This document shows, piece by piece, positions 1,640 to 20,414 of a stretch of DNA of 22,863 nt. The notes beneath the pieces were generated by a model. That model ran no database searches and was not told the origin of the DNA. It saw only the letters and a list, made by a program, of their open reading frames with translations. The first letter of the stretch is position 1, and each line of letters opens with the position of its first letter. The translations under genes were made by a program, and so were the position numbers. The DNA is from a virus: IMG/VR virus record IMGVR_UViG_3300013115_000139, positions 1 through 22,863 of that record; one strand, given 5' to 3'.

Positions 1640-1924
1640 TTACCAAACTTCCAATGCCTCGCAATGCTGTTCCTGTCTTCCGATGGCATGAATTAGATTG
1701 TAAAATTGCTCTTGCGTAATTAACTGTTGCAGTTCTATGATTGCCTCCTGGCTCCACTCGGGGCACTTGGGCGGTGCGGCAATAATTTTAGTCTTCTTCC
1801 CGCACGTTGCCGATCCCAGAACGGCGCTTAATAGAATCAATAAGCCGCTGACCTGTAGGAATCGCTTTCCGTAAAATAATATTCGTTGCCCGTGTCCTTT
1901 TCTCTGCGTCTTCATGTATTTCAT
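1640..1924 (-). CDS. Small secreted/lipoprotein-like ORF nested in the upstream gene; possible o-spanin
   Basis: This 94-residue ORF begins inside the membrane-protein gene at 1788-2033 in another frame and runs past its end. The start is set by a near-perfect Shine-Dalgarno (AGGAGGT) 5 bases before the ATG at 1924. The in-frame ATG at 1960 lacks such a site. The N-terminus is basic (KYMKTQRKGHGQR), followed by a hydrophobic run (VSGLLILLSAVLG) and SATC at residues 38-41, which resembles a signal sequence with an imperfect lipobox (Thr at -1). The remainder contains PP and CPEW and no further membrane segment. An overlapping pair of this kind recalls Rz/Rz1 spanins, which disrupt the outer membrane at lysis. 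That is inference from architecture; no spanin family was recognised. Confidence 0.6.
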   Translation of the reverse strand: MKYMKTQRKGHGQRILFYGKRFLQVSGLLILLSAVLGSATCGKKTKIIAAPPKCPEWSQEAIIELQQLITQEQFYNLIHAIGRQEQHCEALEVW

Positions 1925-2033
1925 TCTCAACCTCCTGTCTTCCCATTTTCTTATATGCATTCATCATATAGGTAATTATCCCAATAACAATTCCCACAAC
2001 GACAGAAATAATAATTCCAAATGTCCATCCCAT
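1788..2033 (-). CDS. Small single-pass membrane protein, unknown (possible partner of nested ORF)
   Basis: The 81-residue protein has an N-terminal hydrophobic segment (about residues 4-24, rich in Ile and Val) and then a charged, mostly helical tail of about 55 residues containing RQEVENEIHEDAEKR. An AAGGGA lies about 10 bases before the ATG. Its sequence hosts the start and ribosome-binding site of the next gene in a second frame. The architecture (one N-terminal anchor, hydrophilic tail, overlapping lipoprotein-like gene) would fit an i-spanin. However, the positive charges (AYKK) follow the membrane segment, so the positive-inside rule predicts a cytoplasmic tail, which argues against that role. 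No family was recognised. Confidence 0.7.
   Translation of the reverse strand: MGWTFGIIISVVVGIVIGIITYMMNAYKKMGRQEVENEIHEDAEKRTRATNIILRKAIPTGQRLIDSIKRRSGIGNVREED
1930..1936 (-). promoter_or_regulatory. Strong internal ribosome binding site (AGGAGGT)
   Basis: AGGAGGT on the minus strand, 5 bases before the ATG at 1924, lies inside the coding sequence of the membrane-protein gene, where it encodes part of RQEVENE. It decides the start of the nested gene and is the main evidence that the nested gene is translated. Confidence 0.75.
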
Positions 2034-14562: not shown

Positions 14563-15312
14563 TTAGTTTCTTTTTTCTGGATTATCCAGAGATTCAATAA
14601 ATTCGTTCAATTTTTTCTGTGTGACTGGTCCGAGTATTCCATCGGTGTATAAATTATTTTTTCTTTGAAATCGAGTGACCACCAATGCCGTTGACGGACC
14701 ATAGAATCCATCAACAAATAGATAGTCTCTGATAGACCCTTTCGGTGTGGCTTCTGAAATCCAAGTATTTAATTTAAGTTGAATTCCTCGCACATCATCC
14801 CCGGTCGCAAACACATCGTAAACGTGTGCGCTGCTCTTCTTGGATGATGGATGATAATTTGCTCCTGCATTAAACTTTCCATATTCATTGAGATTCAAAA
14901 TTCGTTTATAATCAAACACCGGACAAAGTTTACTCGAAACTTCTCGGTGCCCGCGAAAGGTAAGTTTCAAATCCCCATAGGCATCATTGATTTGCTTACA
15001 TAAAAGAATCAATGCTTTATATTGGTCTTCTGTAAAATCTTCTTCATTCAGACCATGCAGACAAATTGCAATCGACCCGCGATTATATCCCTTCTGGGCG
15101 GCTGGAACCTTTTCTAAATCTCTACCCGATTGAATGGTTCCGTCCGTGCGAATGAAATAATGATACCCAATGTCGGACCATCCCTTTTCGGTATGCCATC
15201 GTCGAATTACTTGAACATGGTCATGGAACGGGCTATTACTCGCAGAGCAATGTAAGAAAACTGTGTTCACATATCTTTCTGGCATGACAAACTTAAAATG
15301 GTCATTTGCCAT
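14563..15312 (-). CDS. Endolysin: N-acetylmuramoyl-L-alanine amidase with peptidoglycan-binding domain
   Basis: The enzyme cuts the amide bond between muramic acid and L-Ala in peptidoglycan to lyse the host. The 249-residue protein has an N-terminal Amidase_2 domain with FLHCSAS (zinc His21), DIGYHYFI (Tyr50), GHRE (His122) and SSKLCP (Lys128, Cys130). These are the zinc and catalytic residues known from T7 lysozyme. A C-terminal peptidoglycan-binding module follows (about 170-245, VDGFYGPSTALVVTRFQ and TDGILGPVTQKKL). The start at 15312 is chosen for AAAGGA five bases upstream and overlap with the small gene before it. A longer frame to 15420 lacks support. No signal peptide is visible, so release should depend on a holin. 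Confidence 0.93.
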   Translation of the reverse strand: MANDHFKFVMPERYVNTVFLHCSASNSPFHDHVQVIRRWHTEKGWSDIGYHYFIRTDGTIQSGRDLEKVPAAQKGYNRGSIAICLHGLNEEDFTEDQYKALILLCKQINDAYGDLKLTFRGHREVSSKLCPVFDYKRILNLNEYGKFNAGANYHPSSKKSSAHVYDVFATGDDVRGIQLKLNTWISEATPKGSIRDYLFVDGFYGPSTALVVTRFQRKNNLYTDGILGPVTQKKLNEFIESLDNPEKRN

Positions 15313-15475
15313 TCGTATTCCTTTCGAGTTCTTTTCTATCGGAGCATTCTGAACAAGCGTATAATGCTTCGGCCAAAACACGGTCATACCCAACATCGAG
15401 AGCAATTCTTTTAACTTCATCTACATCCTCTTCACAAAAATCACAAACAAATCGACGTTCGTTAACTTCTTTCAT
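15302..15475 (-). CDS. Small CxxC...CxxC (zinc-ribbon-like) protein
   Basis: The 57-residue protein has FVCDFCEEDV near the start and ACSECSDRKE near the end, i.e. two CxxC pairs about 26 residues apart, which suggests a single zinc site. AGGGGAA lies a few bases before the ATG at 15475. The 3' end overlaps the amidase start by 11 bases, so the two are probably co-translated. It is the first gene after the strong terminator at 15499-15518. No named family was recognised; candidates include a small regulator or a host-protein binder, but nothing in the sequence decides. Confidence 0.68.
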   Translation of the reverse strand: MKEVNERRFVCDFCEEDVDEVKRIALDVGYDRVLAEALYACSECSDRKELERNTNGK

Positions 15476-16914: not shown

Positions 16915-17304
16915 CTATTTCCTTACAATCACATGAGTAGAAACAACTTTACCGGCAAAAAACTCTTTTGCAAATTGAATTGCCTTATACTGGTCAAAGT
17001 CCTTACAAGTAAAGATGTTCAGATAGACTGCTTTCAAATCTGTGAGTGTATGAATAGTGAAATTGGATGTGCTAATAAACTGCACCGCCGAGATTCCATT
17101 CAGATGTGGAATGTCCTTCCACTCTGGAGGACACTCGTCCATCGTCCACCAATAACGTTTGCACAATTCCATATCTGTAAGGTCGGCCAATTCAACAAAA
17201 AACTTATCCAGAGAAAACTTATTGAATTTCTCTACATCGCAATTATGCAAATCAAGGATTAGTTCTTTTCCGTAAGGCTTATCATTCGTCAATGTCTTCG
17301 TCAT
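16915..17304 (-). CDS. speD: S-adenosylmethionine decarboxylase proenzyme (SpeD-like)
   Basis: The enzyme makes decarboxylated AdoMet, the aminopropyl donor for spermidine, using a pyruvoyl group formed by self-cleavage. The 129-residue protein has an N-terminal YGKELILDLHNCD strand, then ISTSNFTIHTL with Ser80 (pyruvoyl-forming position) and His85, and NIFTCKDFDQYKA with Cys100. These match the Ser, His and Cys of bacterial class 1b SpeD. The residue before the Ser is Thr rather than the usual Glu, which could affect processing. Phage speD genes are known in cyanophages. It sits between gp62 and a membrane-protein gene, overlapping the latter by 23 bases. GGGAG lies 9 bases before the ATG. 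Confidence 0.87.
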   Translation of the reverse strand: MTKTLTNDKPYGKELILDLHNCDVEKFNKFSLDKFFVELADLTDMELCKRYWWTMDECPPEWKDIPHLNGISAVQFISTSNFTIHTLTDLKAVYLNIFTCKDFDQYKAIQFAKEFFAGKVVSTHVIVRK

Positions 17305-17563
17305 ATTCTGATACTCCCATTATTTTATTTACTTTTTCTTCTGCCTCTTTCATGTTAAGCCGGGCCGCCTGCATATTTGCAATCATGGATTCTATCTCTT
17401 TCCGTTTCAGTTGAAAAGAAATAAAATCCGCATCTTGTTTTTCAATGCGTTCGTCTACATTGTCATGTGGTAGCCTGTCAAGTGCCAACTTGACAAGCAC
17501 GGTAAGAACAAACGCACCAATCGTCCACACGACTATTCCAATTATGATTGTTGTCCACGGCAT
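17282..17563 (-). CDS. Membrane-anchored coiled-coil protein, unknown
   Basis: The 93-residue protein has an N-terminal membrane segment (about residues 5-27, TTIIIGIVVWTIGAFVLTVL). A charged helical region follows with heptad-like spacing (RKEIESMIANMQAARLNMKE), and the tail is acidic (YDEDIDE). GAGGAAAGAG precedes the ATG, and the gene starts one base after the stop of the DUF4406-like gene. The shape (one anchor plus coiled coil) resembles i-spanins and other small phage membrane proteins, but no overlapping lipoprotein gene is seen; the downstream neighbour is speD. No family was recognised. Confidence 0.78.
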   Translation of the reverse strand: MPWTTIIIGIVVWTIGAFVLTVLVKLALDRLPHDNVDERIEKQDADFISFQLKRKEIESMIANMQAARLNMKEAEEKVNKIMGVSEYDEDIDE

Positions 17564-19382: not shown

Positions 19383-20414
19383 TTAAAACACTACTTGAAC
19401 TCCCACAATTGCACCATCATTGCTTGGCCCACGCGCAGCATCTTCGTTGAAATACTGAACGGTAACCTTTGAACCTGCAAAATCAGCCAAGTTGAAGTTT
19501 GCACCCACATCAAACCGCTCGGTATCACCCGAACGATATTCATCATAATCAAAACTCTGATAAAGGAAGAAGGGTTCAAATCCAACATTCAATGATGCAA
19601 CCTTATGGACGTTTGCCAATGCAATTGAAGCACCTGCCGAAAAACCAGTTCCGGCATTGCGTCCAGAACCTTGATAATAACGGGCACCATCAAGGTCATA
19701 GTCTGCAAACGAAGCAGTAAGAGAAACTGTTCCAGGGTCAACTGTAGTGGTATAGAGTGCATCAACCCCAACCCCGAAAAAGTCCTTGTTGCCACGAAAG
19801 GCATCGTTCTGGGATTGAATGTTAATTCCCAAAGCCAAGCCTTCCAATGCTGCGATTGCAAGATCCACTCGCGCAGCAACCAGAGCATCGCCCCGTCCAC
19901 CGTCGAACAGTCCTACGTTGTATGCAATGCCGACACCTTCGGCTGCATCTGTGGAACCAGAGAGTGCAACTCCGTCACCACGACCGAAGTCCTCTGGGGA
20001 TGCCCACTTGGAAACCACGTTCGTTCCATCCCAAGTAGTCAGACCATAGAGGTTCTCCGATGCATTTCGGTCGGCAGGAATTAGAAACCGTCCAACCTTA
20101 ACGTCTGCAAGATTCTTGTGTAATGAAGTACCAAGTGATGCATCAAGAATGTTCAAATCTGAACCATCATACTGAACAGACGCAAACGCATCAAAACCAC
20201 CCTTCGATGCTGTTGCATTTAGACGAACATTCTCAAGGTCAAAATTGTTTCCATTGTCATCAAAAATTCCTGCGGCGCGTGACTCTGCACCCAATGCCAC
20301 AGCGGTATCTCCGCTGGCGGCTGCTGCATCTTCGGCCGAAACGCTAACTGCGCTCAGACAAAATGCAAGTAATGTAACAAACAAACACTTACTAACGCTG
20401 CTAATACTACTCAT
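19383..20414 (-). CDS. Outer-membrane porin (OprO/OprP-like beta barrel)
   Basis: The 343-residue protein starts with a classical Sec signal peptide: a short n-region ending in Lys, a hydrophobic core CLFVTLLAFCLSAV, and predicted cleavage after SVSA near residue 27. The rest alternates short amphipathic strands and Gly/Asp-rich turns. It includes KVGRFLIPADR, the FGRGDGVALSG segment and YNVGLFDGGRGD, a pattern typical of the phosphate-selective porin O/P group. The C-terminus is VGVQVVF, ending in the aromatic residue needed for BAM-dependent assembly. The frame is intact and AAGGAGAG precedes the ATG by 7 bases. The region appears more GC-rich than the neighbouring genes by eye. Likely roles are nutrient uptake, or altering the cell surface to block superinfection; both are inference. 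Confidence 0.87.
   Translation of the reverse strand: MSSISSVSKCLFVTLLAFCLSAVSVSAEDAAAASGDTAVALGAESRAAGIFDDNGNNFDLENVRLNATASKGGFDAFASVQYDGSDLNILDASLGTSLHKNLADVKVGRFLIPADRNASENLYGLTTWDGTNVVSKWASPEDFGRGDGVALSGSTDAAEGVGIAYNVGLFDGGRGDALVAARVDLAIAALEGLALGINIQSQNDAFRGNKDFFGVGVDALYTTTVDPGTVSLTASFADYDLDGARYYQGSGRNAGTGFSAGASIALANVHKVASLNVGFEPFFLYQSFDYDEYRSGDTERFDVGANFNLADFAGSKVTVQYFNEDAARGPSNDGAIVGVQVVF

Follow-up and report, generated by a model that had tools for sequence, protein, structure and literature searches.

Overlapping genes upstream of the primase in marine T4-like phages and their possible function as a two-component spanin

Organization and genomic setting of the gene pair

Two small genes, P1 and P2, overlap on the minus strand of a 22,863-nt stretch of viral DNA (IMG/VR record IMGVR_UViG_3300013115_000139, positions 1 to 22,863), which is referred to below as the window. 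P1 (2033-1788) is an open reading frame of 81 codons plus stop with homologues in 16 other distinct loci. It encodes a predicted small membrane protein, the candidate inner-membrane subunit (i-spanin) of a spanin, whose predicted transmembrane helix (residues 5-23, positions 1965-2021) lacks charged residues and has a mean Kyte-Doolittle hydropathy of 2.58. P2 (1924-1640), delineated by its reading frame, conservation and selection, comprises 94 codons plus stop and codes for a putative lipoprotein precursor, the candidate outer-membrane subunit (o-spanin). Relative to P1 (frame 0), P2 is read in frame +1. The overlap (1924-1788) spans 137 of the 246 nt of P1, that is 56%, and P2 extends 148 nt past the P1 stop codon. 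The Shine-Dalgarno site of P2, AGGAGGT (1936-1930), lies within P1 and ends 5 nt ahead of the P2 ATG at position 1924. This ATG aligns in all 17 distinct loci, whereas an alternative in-frame ATG upstream at 1960, which would yield a protein of 106 aa, is kept only in one relative (L001). Further landmarks of P2 are the non-canonical lipobox SATC (residues 38-41, positions 1802-1813), whose Cys is invariant, and two motifs evident from the alignment: PPKCPEW (residues 51-57, positions 1754-1774) with the invariant residues Cys54 and Trp57, and HCEAL with the invariant Cys88 (1661-1663). An earlier note on this DNA had already placed AGGAGGT at 1930-1936 inside the gene of an 81-residue membrane protein as the start signal of a 94-residue protein in another frame, and had put the overlap at more than half of the first gene. 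These positions and the extent of the overlap are right; the strand had been left unstated.

The window covers part of the genome of a T4-like myovirus. Its DNA polymerase shares 48.8% identity with the enzyme of a Synechococcus phage, and its primase 39.7% with the counterpart in Pelagibacter phage Mosig (Kyanoviridae). Read along the minus strand, the genes encode a DUF7207 protein, a 119-aa protein, a 93-aa protein, P1, P2, the primase (1612-557) and the thymidylate synthase ThyX (560-3), the latter two assigned by Pfam/PHROG searches. The pair sits among replication genes. It does not adjoin the candidate endolysin detected by the same searches, an Amidase_2 plus PG_binding_1 protein (14563-15420, minus), which is ~12.5 kb away. 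The late-promoter motif ATAAATA occurs nine times in the window versus 6.2 occurrences expected, none of them just upstream of P1, and scans for sigma-70 promoters and terminators gave results close to chance level. A separate minus-strand gene at 17282-17563 encodes a 93-aa protein of no clear family, whose N-terminal part contains a hydrophobic helix and whose charged tail is probably coiled; its product is a possible holin or unlinked i-spanin.

Distribution of the pair among related phages

P1, P2 and the adjacent primase each served as anchor for scans of IMG/VR. The 20 contigs obtained and the window represent, after dropping four contigs with identical P1/P2, at least 17 distinct loci (the window and 16 from IMG/VR), a lower bound from an uneven sampling. 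Thus, the overlap that the earlier note had proposed to look for in related phages recurs in 16 further distinct loci. Since some scans were anchored on P2, an intact P2 is in these cases partly built in; fair tests of its integrity are the P1-anchored scans (2, 10 and 11 loci), in which every contig carried an intact P2, and the primase-anchored set. The latter comprises 84 loci (80 of 547 confirmed loci plus 4 named phage loci): the pair is present in three of them (L006-L008), and in the other 81 neither P1 nor P2 was found alone at E<0.01. A broken P2 beside an intact P1, which the earlier note had named as the refuting observation, was looked for and occurs in none of the 17 distinct loci.

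A tblastn comparison with 50,697 named phage records gave no match for P1 or P2 of the window, none for P1 of the distant locus L097 and one chance-level match (E=5) for its P2. P2 is also missing from Mosig, Melnitz, S-WAM2 and S-CRM01, the four named relatives that were inspected, and none of 24 pattern matches in bacterial and archaeal genome contigs was confirmed. P1/P2-like reading frames upstream of the primase in five further contigs (L044, L057, L067, L069 and L071; E 0.017-0.9) were rejected as relatives, because the membrane segment of the P1-like frames is C-terminal and a lipobox is missing from the P2-like frames of L044, L057 and L069.

Both overlapping frames are conserved as genes

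In all 17 distinct loci both frames are open, P2 is in frame +1 relative to P1, the overlap measures 119-143 nt, and the P2 start falls at a fraction of 0.44-0.51 along P1. By eye, 14 of the loci have AGGAGG or GAGG ~6 nt ahead of the P2 ATG; the site is weak in L093, L006 and L008. When the overlapping part of the window P1 was recoded synonymously at random, 645 of 5,000 sequences kept the +1 frame open, and only 10 of these also reached the hydrophobicity of the real frame. Across the 17 loci, the +1 frame stayed open in 7.5-37% of the recodings and was both open and equally hydrophobic in at most 49 of 5,000.

Silent divergence of P2 amounts to 3.5/31.2 sites in the overlap versus 19/28.0 in the single-coding part between the window and L002, and to 2.5/31.7 versus 21/27.5 between L001 and L002. 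Fisher's test, computed on rounded counts and applied to six contrasts that all have less change in the overlap, gave p values of 1.6e-5 and 1.7e-7 for these two pairs; contrasts running the opposite way (L094-L095, P1 of window-L001, and L007-L097) were left out of it. For P1 the contrast is weaker, with 0.15 in the overlap versus 0.44 outside between the window and L002 (p 0.018). It is absent between the window and L001 (0.17 versus 0.13) and reversed between L007 and L097 (0.61 versus 0.44), where the signal part of P2 is free to change. The P2 contrast is in turn weak or absent in the L092/L093/L096/L100 group (0.21 versus 0.24 for L092-L093; 0.23 versus 0.21 for L093-L100), and L094 differs from L095 only within the overlap. 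For the full set of 13 locus pairs, which consists of hand-picked close relatives and is not a set of independent comparisons, the silent divergence of P2 is 0.12 inside and 0.38 outside the overlap; the corresponding values for P1 are 0.20 and 0.35. Beyond the overlap, pN of P2 is 0.034 versus a pS of 0.58 (window-L001) and 0.084 versus 0.78 (L097-L104), which clearly indicates purifying selection.

It might be argued that only P1 is a gene and that P2 is a by-product of its codon bias, as chance overlapping reading frames are common and the signal part of P2 evolves fast in the L007/L097/L104 group (pN 0.13-0.20). However, P2 is open in every locus, its start, its lipobox Cys and the motifs PPxCPxW and HCEAL are conserved, and both the recoding test and the low pN beyond the overlap speak against this explanation, which is hardly conceivable and is refuted as far as sequence can refute it. 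Open frames, depletion of silent changes, recoding and pN below pS together establish P2 as a gene. Judged by these comparisons, P1 and P2 are both real, conserved genes, and their overlap is not a product of chance.

P2 has the features of a lipoprotein precursor

All 17 P2 proteins combine a basic N-terminus with a hydrophobic stretch and the invariant lipobox Cys. As measured by the strict consensus [LVI][ASTVI][GAS]C, the lipobox is canonical in five loci (LSGC twice, LSSC, VTSC, LISC) and deviates only at position -3 in nine, whereas the SATC of the remaining three (window, L001, L002) is off consensus at both -3 and -1 and ranks among the poorest. The earlier note had rightly called the lipobox imperfect; the doubt that it attached to this is weakened by the relatives with a canonical one. 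Some o-spanins depart from the lipobox consensus in the account of Kongari et al. 2018 (PMC6139136). The residue at +2 after the Cys is never Asp in the 17 loci. By a relaxed rule for lipoproteins, neither the 22.9-kb window nor an 84-kb relative contains, other than P2, a lipoprotein-like reading frame preceded by a Shine-Dalgarno site; this rule is not generous, as it misses P2 itself in three of seven shorter loci (L127, L132 and L126).

The predicted mature part of P2 keeps PPxCPxW (with one Pro replaced in L105) and HC[EQ]AL, contains three to four Pro residues and has two invariant Cys plus at most one more, whereas P1 is free of Cys in all 17 loci. A combination of no Cys in the i-spanin and two in the o-spanin is the commonest one among the 528 two-component spanins surveyed by Kongari et al. 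(PMC6139136). The survey lists at least one periplasmic Cys for 507 of the 528 pairs, and the same holds for P1/P2 in 17 of 17 loci.

P2 of the window has no family match above noise in PHROGs or Pfam, and a Pfam search of all 17 proteins returned no family. Weak profile matches to Rz-like spanin families were obtained for L094 (phrog_3198, 0.023) and L097 (phrog_1275, 0.1). The structure model is of low confidence (pLDDT 59.5), and a fold search with it in BFVD gave 27 matches at E<=10, none of them at E<=0.001. By its sequence, P2 carries a lipoprotein-type signal, and its assignment as a lipoprotein is much firmer than that of P1 as its inner-membrane partner.

P1 is a predicted small membrane protein with an equivocal family signal

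The 19-residue helix of the window P1 has no charge ahead of it and three positive plus three negative residues among the next 15. The earlier note had taken the positive charges behind the helix as a sign of a cytoplasmic tail. Of the proven i-spanins used as controls, T4 PseT.3 has identical flanks (0/0 at the N-terminal and 3/3 at the C-terminal side), and values of 1/0 and 3/1 were obtained for lambda Rz and of 0/0 and 2/2 for T7 18.5. Because the functional PseT.3 shares its flanks, the charges do not discriminate in the case of the window P1. The argument is more forceful for the distant P1 proteins. The helix is clear in the window, L001 and L002 (Kyte-Doolittle 2.55-2.58) and weaker in the other loci; it holds a Lys in 13 of the 17 loci, often together with an Asp, the tail reaches a net charge of up to +11, and octanol-scale sums of the helix are negative in five loci (L094, L095, L096, L097 and L006). 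If the P1 tail is periplasmic, the combined periplasmic length of the window pair is ~58 + 54 residues, which lies inside the 62-300 residues given in the survey (PMC6139136).

Family searches with P1 are equivocal. The best, albeit weak, matches of the window P1 are holin families (phrog_1350, 2e-5; phrog_20, 2.7e-5). With the Pfam P21 holin family (PF04971) it reaches 3.1e-4 and 21.1 bits, which is under the cut-off of 26, and in none of the holin families of Pfam does P1 score above the curated cut-off. P1 indeed resembles P21-type pinholins and single-helix holins in being small, with one glycine-rich helix and a charged tail; however, the matches rest largely on the helix, and the nested +1 lipoprotein gene points to an i-spanin. 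Weak matches to Rz-like spanin families were found for P1 of L088 (phrog_1026, 3.4e-5) and L008 (phrog_2466, 5.9e-4), of which phrog_1026 is unspecific, matching 12 of 14 cellular control genomes. The structure model of P1 consists of one long helix, with a low confidence (pLDDT 64.0).

A third small protein in a subset of the loci

In 13 of the 17 loci, P2 is followed by a gene for a third small protein, P3, located before the primase (L006 1013-1279, L007 3713-3976, L008 3722-3982 and ten more). P3 measures 86-97 aa and consists of a single hydrophobic helix near the N-terminus plus a coiled tail. In the remaining four loci (window, L001, L002 and L099) P2 is followed by the primase, and the P3 profile found nothing significant in the sequence stretches of these four that were examined. 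The P1 helix is free of charge in exactly these four loci and holds a Lys in all 13 with P3; as the 17 loci are related, this association is weak evidence and may reflect one or two events. P3 matches phrog_739, the family of the T4 i-spanin, weakly in L008 (0.014) and L104 (0.056), and the P3 profile matches the candidate i-spanin of Methylophilales phage Melnitz at 0.0011; phrog_739 itself matches 14 of 14 control genomes.

Such a distribution looks as if P1 acted as a free-standing i-spanin when alone and paired its helix with P3 when the latter is present. A three-part cassette for outer membrane disruption, made of the nested P1/P2 and the separate anchor P3 in phages classed as spanin-less, is quite unlikely on present evidence; if true, it would represent a spanin with its inner-membrane subunit split in two. 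Near the place taken by P1-P3 here, other marine T4-like contigs carry just upstream of the primase a protein of ~141-151 aa that combines a coiled region with a membrane segment at its C-terminus (L044 3519-3941, L057 1282-1734, L067 68-505, L069 2079-2516).

Comparison with known spanins

The T4 pair PseT.3/PseT.2 shares several traits with P1/P2: an inner-membrane partner without Cys and two Cys outside the lipobox of the lipoprotein, both of which are required for lysis in the case of PseT.2, as well as genes unlinked to holin and endolysin (PMC6139136). PseT.2 is in addition a lipoprotein with a predicted C-terminal helix, like P2. In contrast, the T4 genes form a separated pair with an overlap of 4 nt as compared to more than 100 nt for P1/P2, PseT.3 has 117 aa instead of the 81 aa of P1, and there is no significant sequence homology. 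In the window and five relative records, the phrog_812 profile matched nothing and phrog_739 gave a single weak match, the P3 of L008; the T4 proteins themselves, used as control, match phrog_739 and phrog_812 at 1.3e-37 and 5e-42. Profile comparisons of P1 and P2 with the spanins of T4 and of roseophage EE36phi1 were likewise not significant. By these profile searches, P1/P2 is outside the T4 families.

In lambda Rz/Rz1 and T7 18.5/18.7, the lipoprotein gene also starts inside the inner-membrane gene in frame +1 (PMC6139136). Those pairs are embedded, whereas P2 runs beyond P1, that is, the pair is overlapped, and unlike Rz1 and 18.7, P2 is not proline-rich. EE36phi1 orf68/orf67 is a marine pair with a short i-spanin (64 aa), but its genes do not overlap; we find them 17 nt apart, the spacing given by Kongari et al. 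(PMC6139136). Family phrog_1026 matches orf68 (2e-4) as well as P1 of L088 and L008, a link that is only suggestive because most of the cellular controls match too. In another marine phage, DFL12phi1, the spanin genes overlap by 116 bp (PMC6139136). Our literature search on spanins in marine, T4-like and Pelagibacter phages found no report of the P1/P2 pair.

A parallel in genomic position is provided by Melnitz (L137, MZ577097.1), also of the Kyanoviridae, whose gp34 (1660-2052) and gp35 (1988-2395) are annotated as hypothetical. They match phrog_739 (5.3e-17) and phrog_812 (4.6e-15), respectively, overlap by 65 nt in frame +1 and lie ~1.1 kb upstream of the primase; gp35 has an LSSC lipobox. 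They look like a T4-type spanin pair. Thus, an overlap of a membrane protein gene and a lipoprotein gene in +1, upstream of the primase, is common to Melnitz and the loci studied here, although gp34/gp35 belong to the T4 families and P1/P2 do not. The text available from the Melnitz report proposes a curli-type pore as lysis factor and mentions spanins only for lambda (PMC9004378).

P1/P2 as a candidate overlapped two-component spanin

We consider it reasonably probable, at roughly 0.6, that P1 and P2 constitute an overlapped two-component spanin with P1 as i-spanin and P2 as o-spanin, forming a new family in Kyanoviridae-related marine phages without significant sequence similarity to known families. 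This reading is favoured because layout, frame, Cys pattern, lipoprotein signal and lengths fit the overlapped two-component spanins described by Kongari et al. (PMC6139136). The o-spanin-type arrangement, with a start inside P1, another frame and an end beyond P1, is seen in 17 of 17 loci, provided that P1 is the i-spanin. The resemblance to the Rz/Rz1 layout, to which the earlier note had drawn attention, therefore holds, with a nested +1 lipoprotein start in every locus. The note had left the choice between a new spanin type and an unrelated membrane pair. Comparison favours the former half, but 'new type' overstates the case, as the pair would be a new family of known architecture.

A somewhat doubtful alternative retains P2 as o-spanin and gives P1 a cytoplasmic tail and the role of a small holin or of an accessory membrane protein, the i-spanin being P3 or an unlinked gene such as 17282-17563. 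The positive tail of P1, its lack of N-terminal charge and the holin matches of the window P1 would agree with this, as would the place of P3 after P2 in most loci, the weak similarities of P3 to T4-type i-spanins, and the helix and charged tail encoded at 17282-17563. On the other hand, the proven i-spanins of T4, lambda and T7 share these charge traits, with at most a few charges N-terminal of the helix and positive residues behind it, and in the survey, overlapped o-spanins overlap i-spanins (PMC6139136). Moreover, P3 was found neither after P2 nor in the stretches examined in four of the loci, including the window, and the unspecific phrog_739 lends it little weight.

The pair might also act in the envelope without any relation to lysis, e.g. 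as a superinfection-blocking lipoprotein with a membrane partner. Such a role would suit its place among replication genes far from the endolysin, the missing late-promoter-like motif just upstream and the lack of strong homology to a known spanin. However, a distance to holin and endolysin is also seen for the T4 spanin genes, the Melnitz T4-type spanins occupy the same neighbourhood close upstream of the primase, and a nested +1 lipoprotein start together with the 0/2 Cys pattern is common in spanins. We therefore regard an envelope function unrelated to lysis as unlikely.

If P1/P2 is a spanin, the basic and hydrophobic signal of P2 would direct its export, Cys41 would be lipidated and the protein, having no Asp at +2, would be sorted to the outer membrane. 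It would be disulfide-linked via Cys54 and Cys88, like PseT.2 of T4 via its two Cys. The N-terminal helix of P1 would hold this protein in the inner membrane, with the helical tail of ~58 residues in the periplasm, and P1 and P2 would make contact through their C-terminal parts. Once the endolysin, presumably the candidate amidase, has removed the peptidoglycan, the pair could draw the membranes together and thereby disrupt the outer membrane. We infer lipidation, topology, interaction and role in lysis from the sequences.

The pair is of interest mainly because these phages have been described as spanin-less. For many T4-like cyanophages from the sea, Kongari et al. 2018 (PMC6139136) could identify no spanin and suggested that it may be dispensable in their hosts, and a 2025 survey reports a single-component endolysin as the predominant arrangement in Kyanoviridae (PMC12596118). 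The candidate P1/P2 spanin and the unrecognised T4-type pair of Melnitz suggest that some of the reported absences are annotation gaps, which arise because the lipoprotein gene hides within another gene.

A minus-strand gene of the window (19383-20414) encodes a 343-aa protein with a signal peptide and the C-terminal sequence ...VGVQVVF, an ending that resembles an outer-membrane beta-barrel motif; the protein has no match in Pfam, PHROG or PDB sequences. Furthermore, P1 and P2 of L002 are 84% and 87% identical to those of the window, yet its primase is only 48% identical to that of the window. Conversely, L002 and L099 share 89% identity in the primase but only 32% in P2. Near-identical primases beside very different pairs, and the reverse, point to mosaic exchange, in which the pair is passed between phages independently of its neighbour. 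P1 and P2 travel as a unit, as is expected of cooperating products, although the overlap alone would also hold them together.
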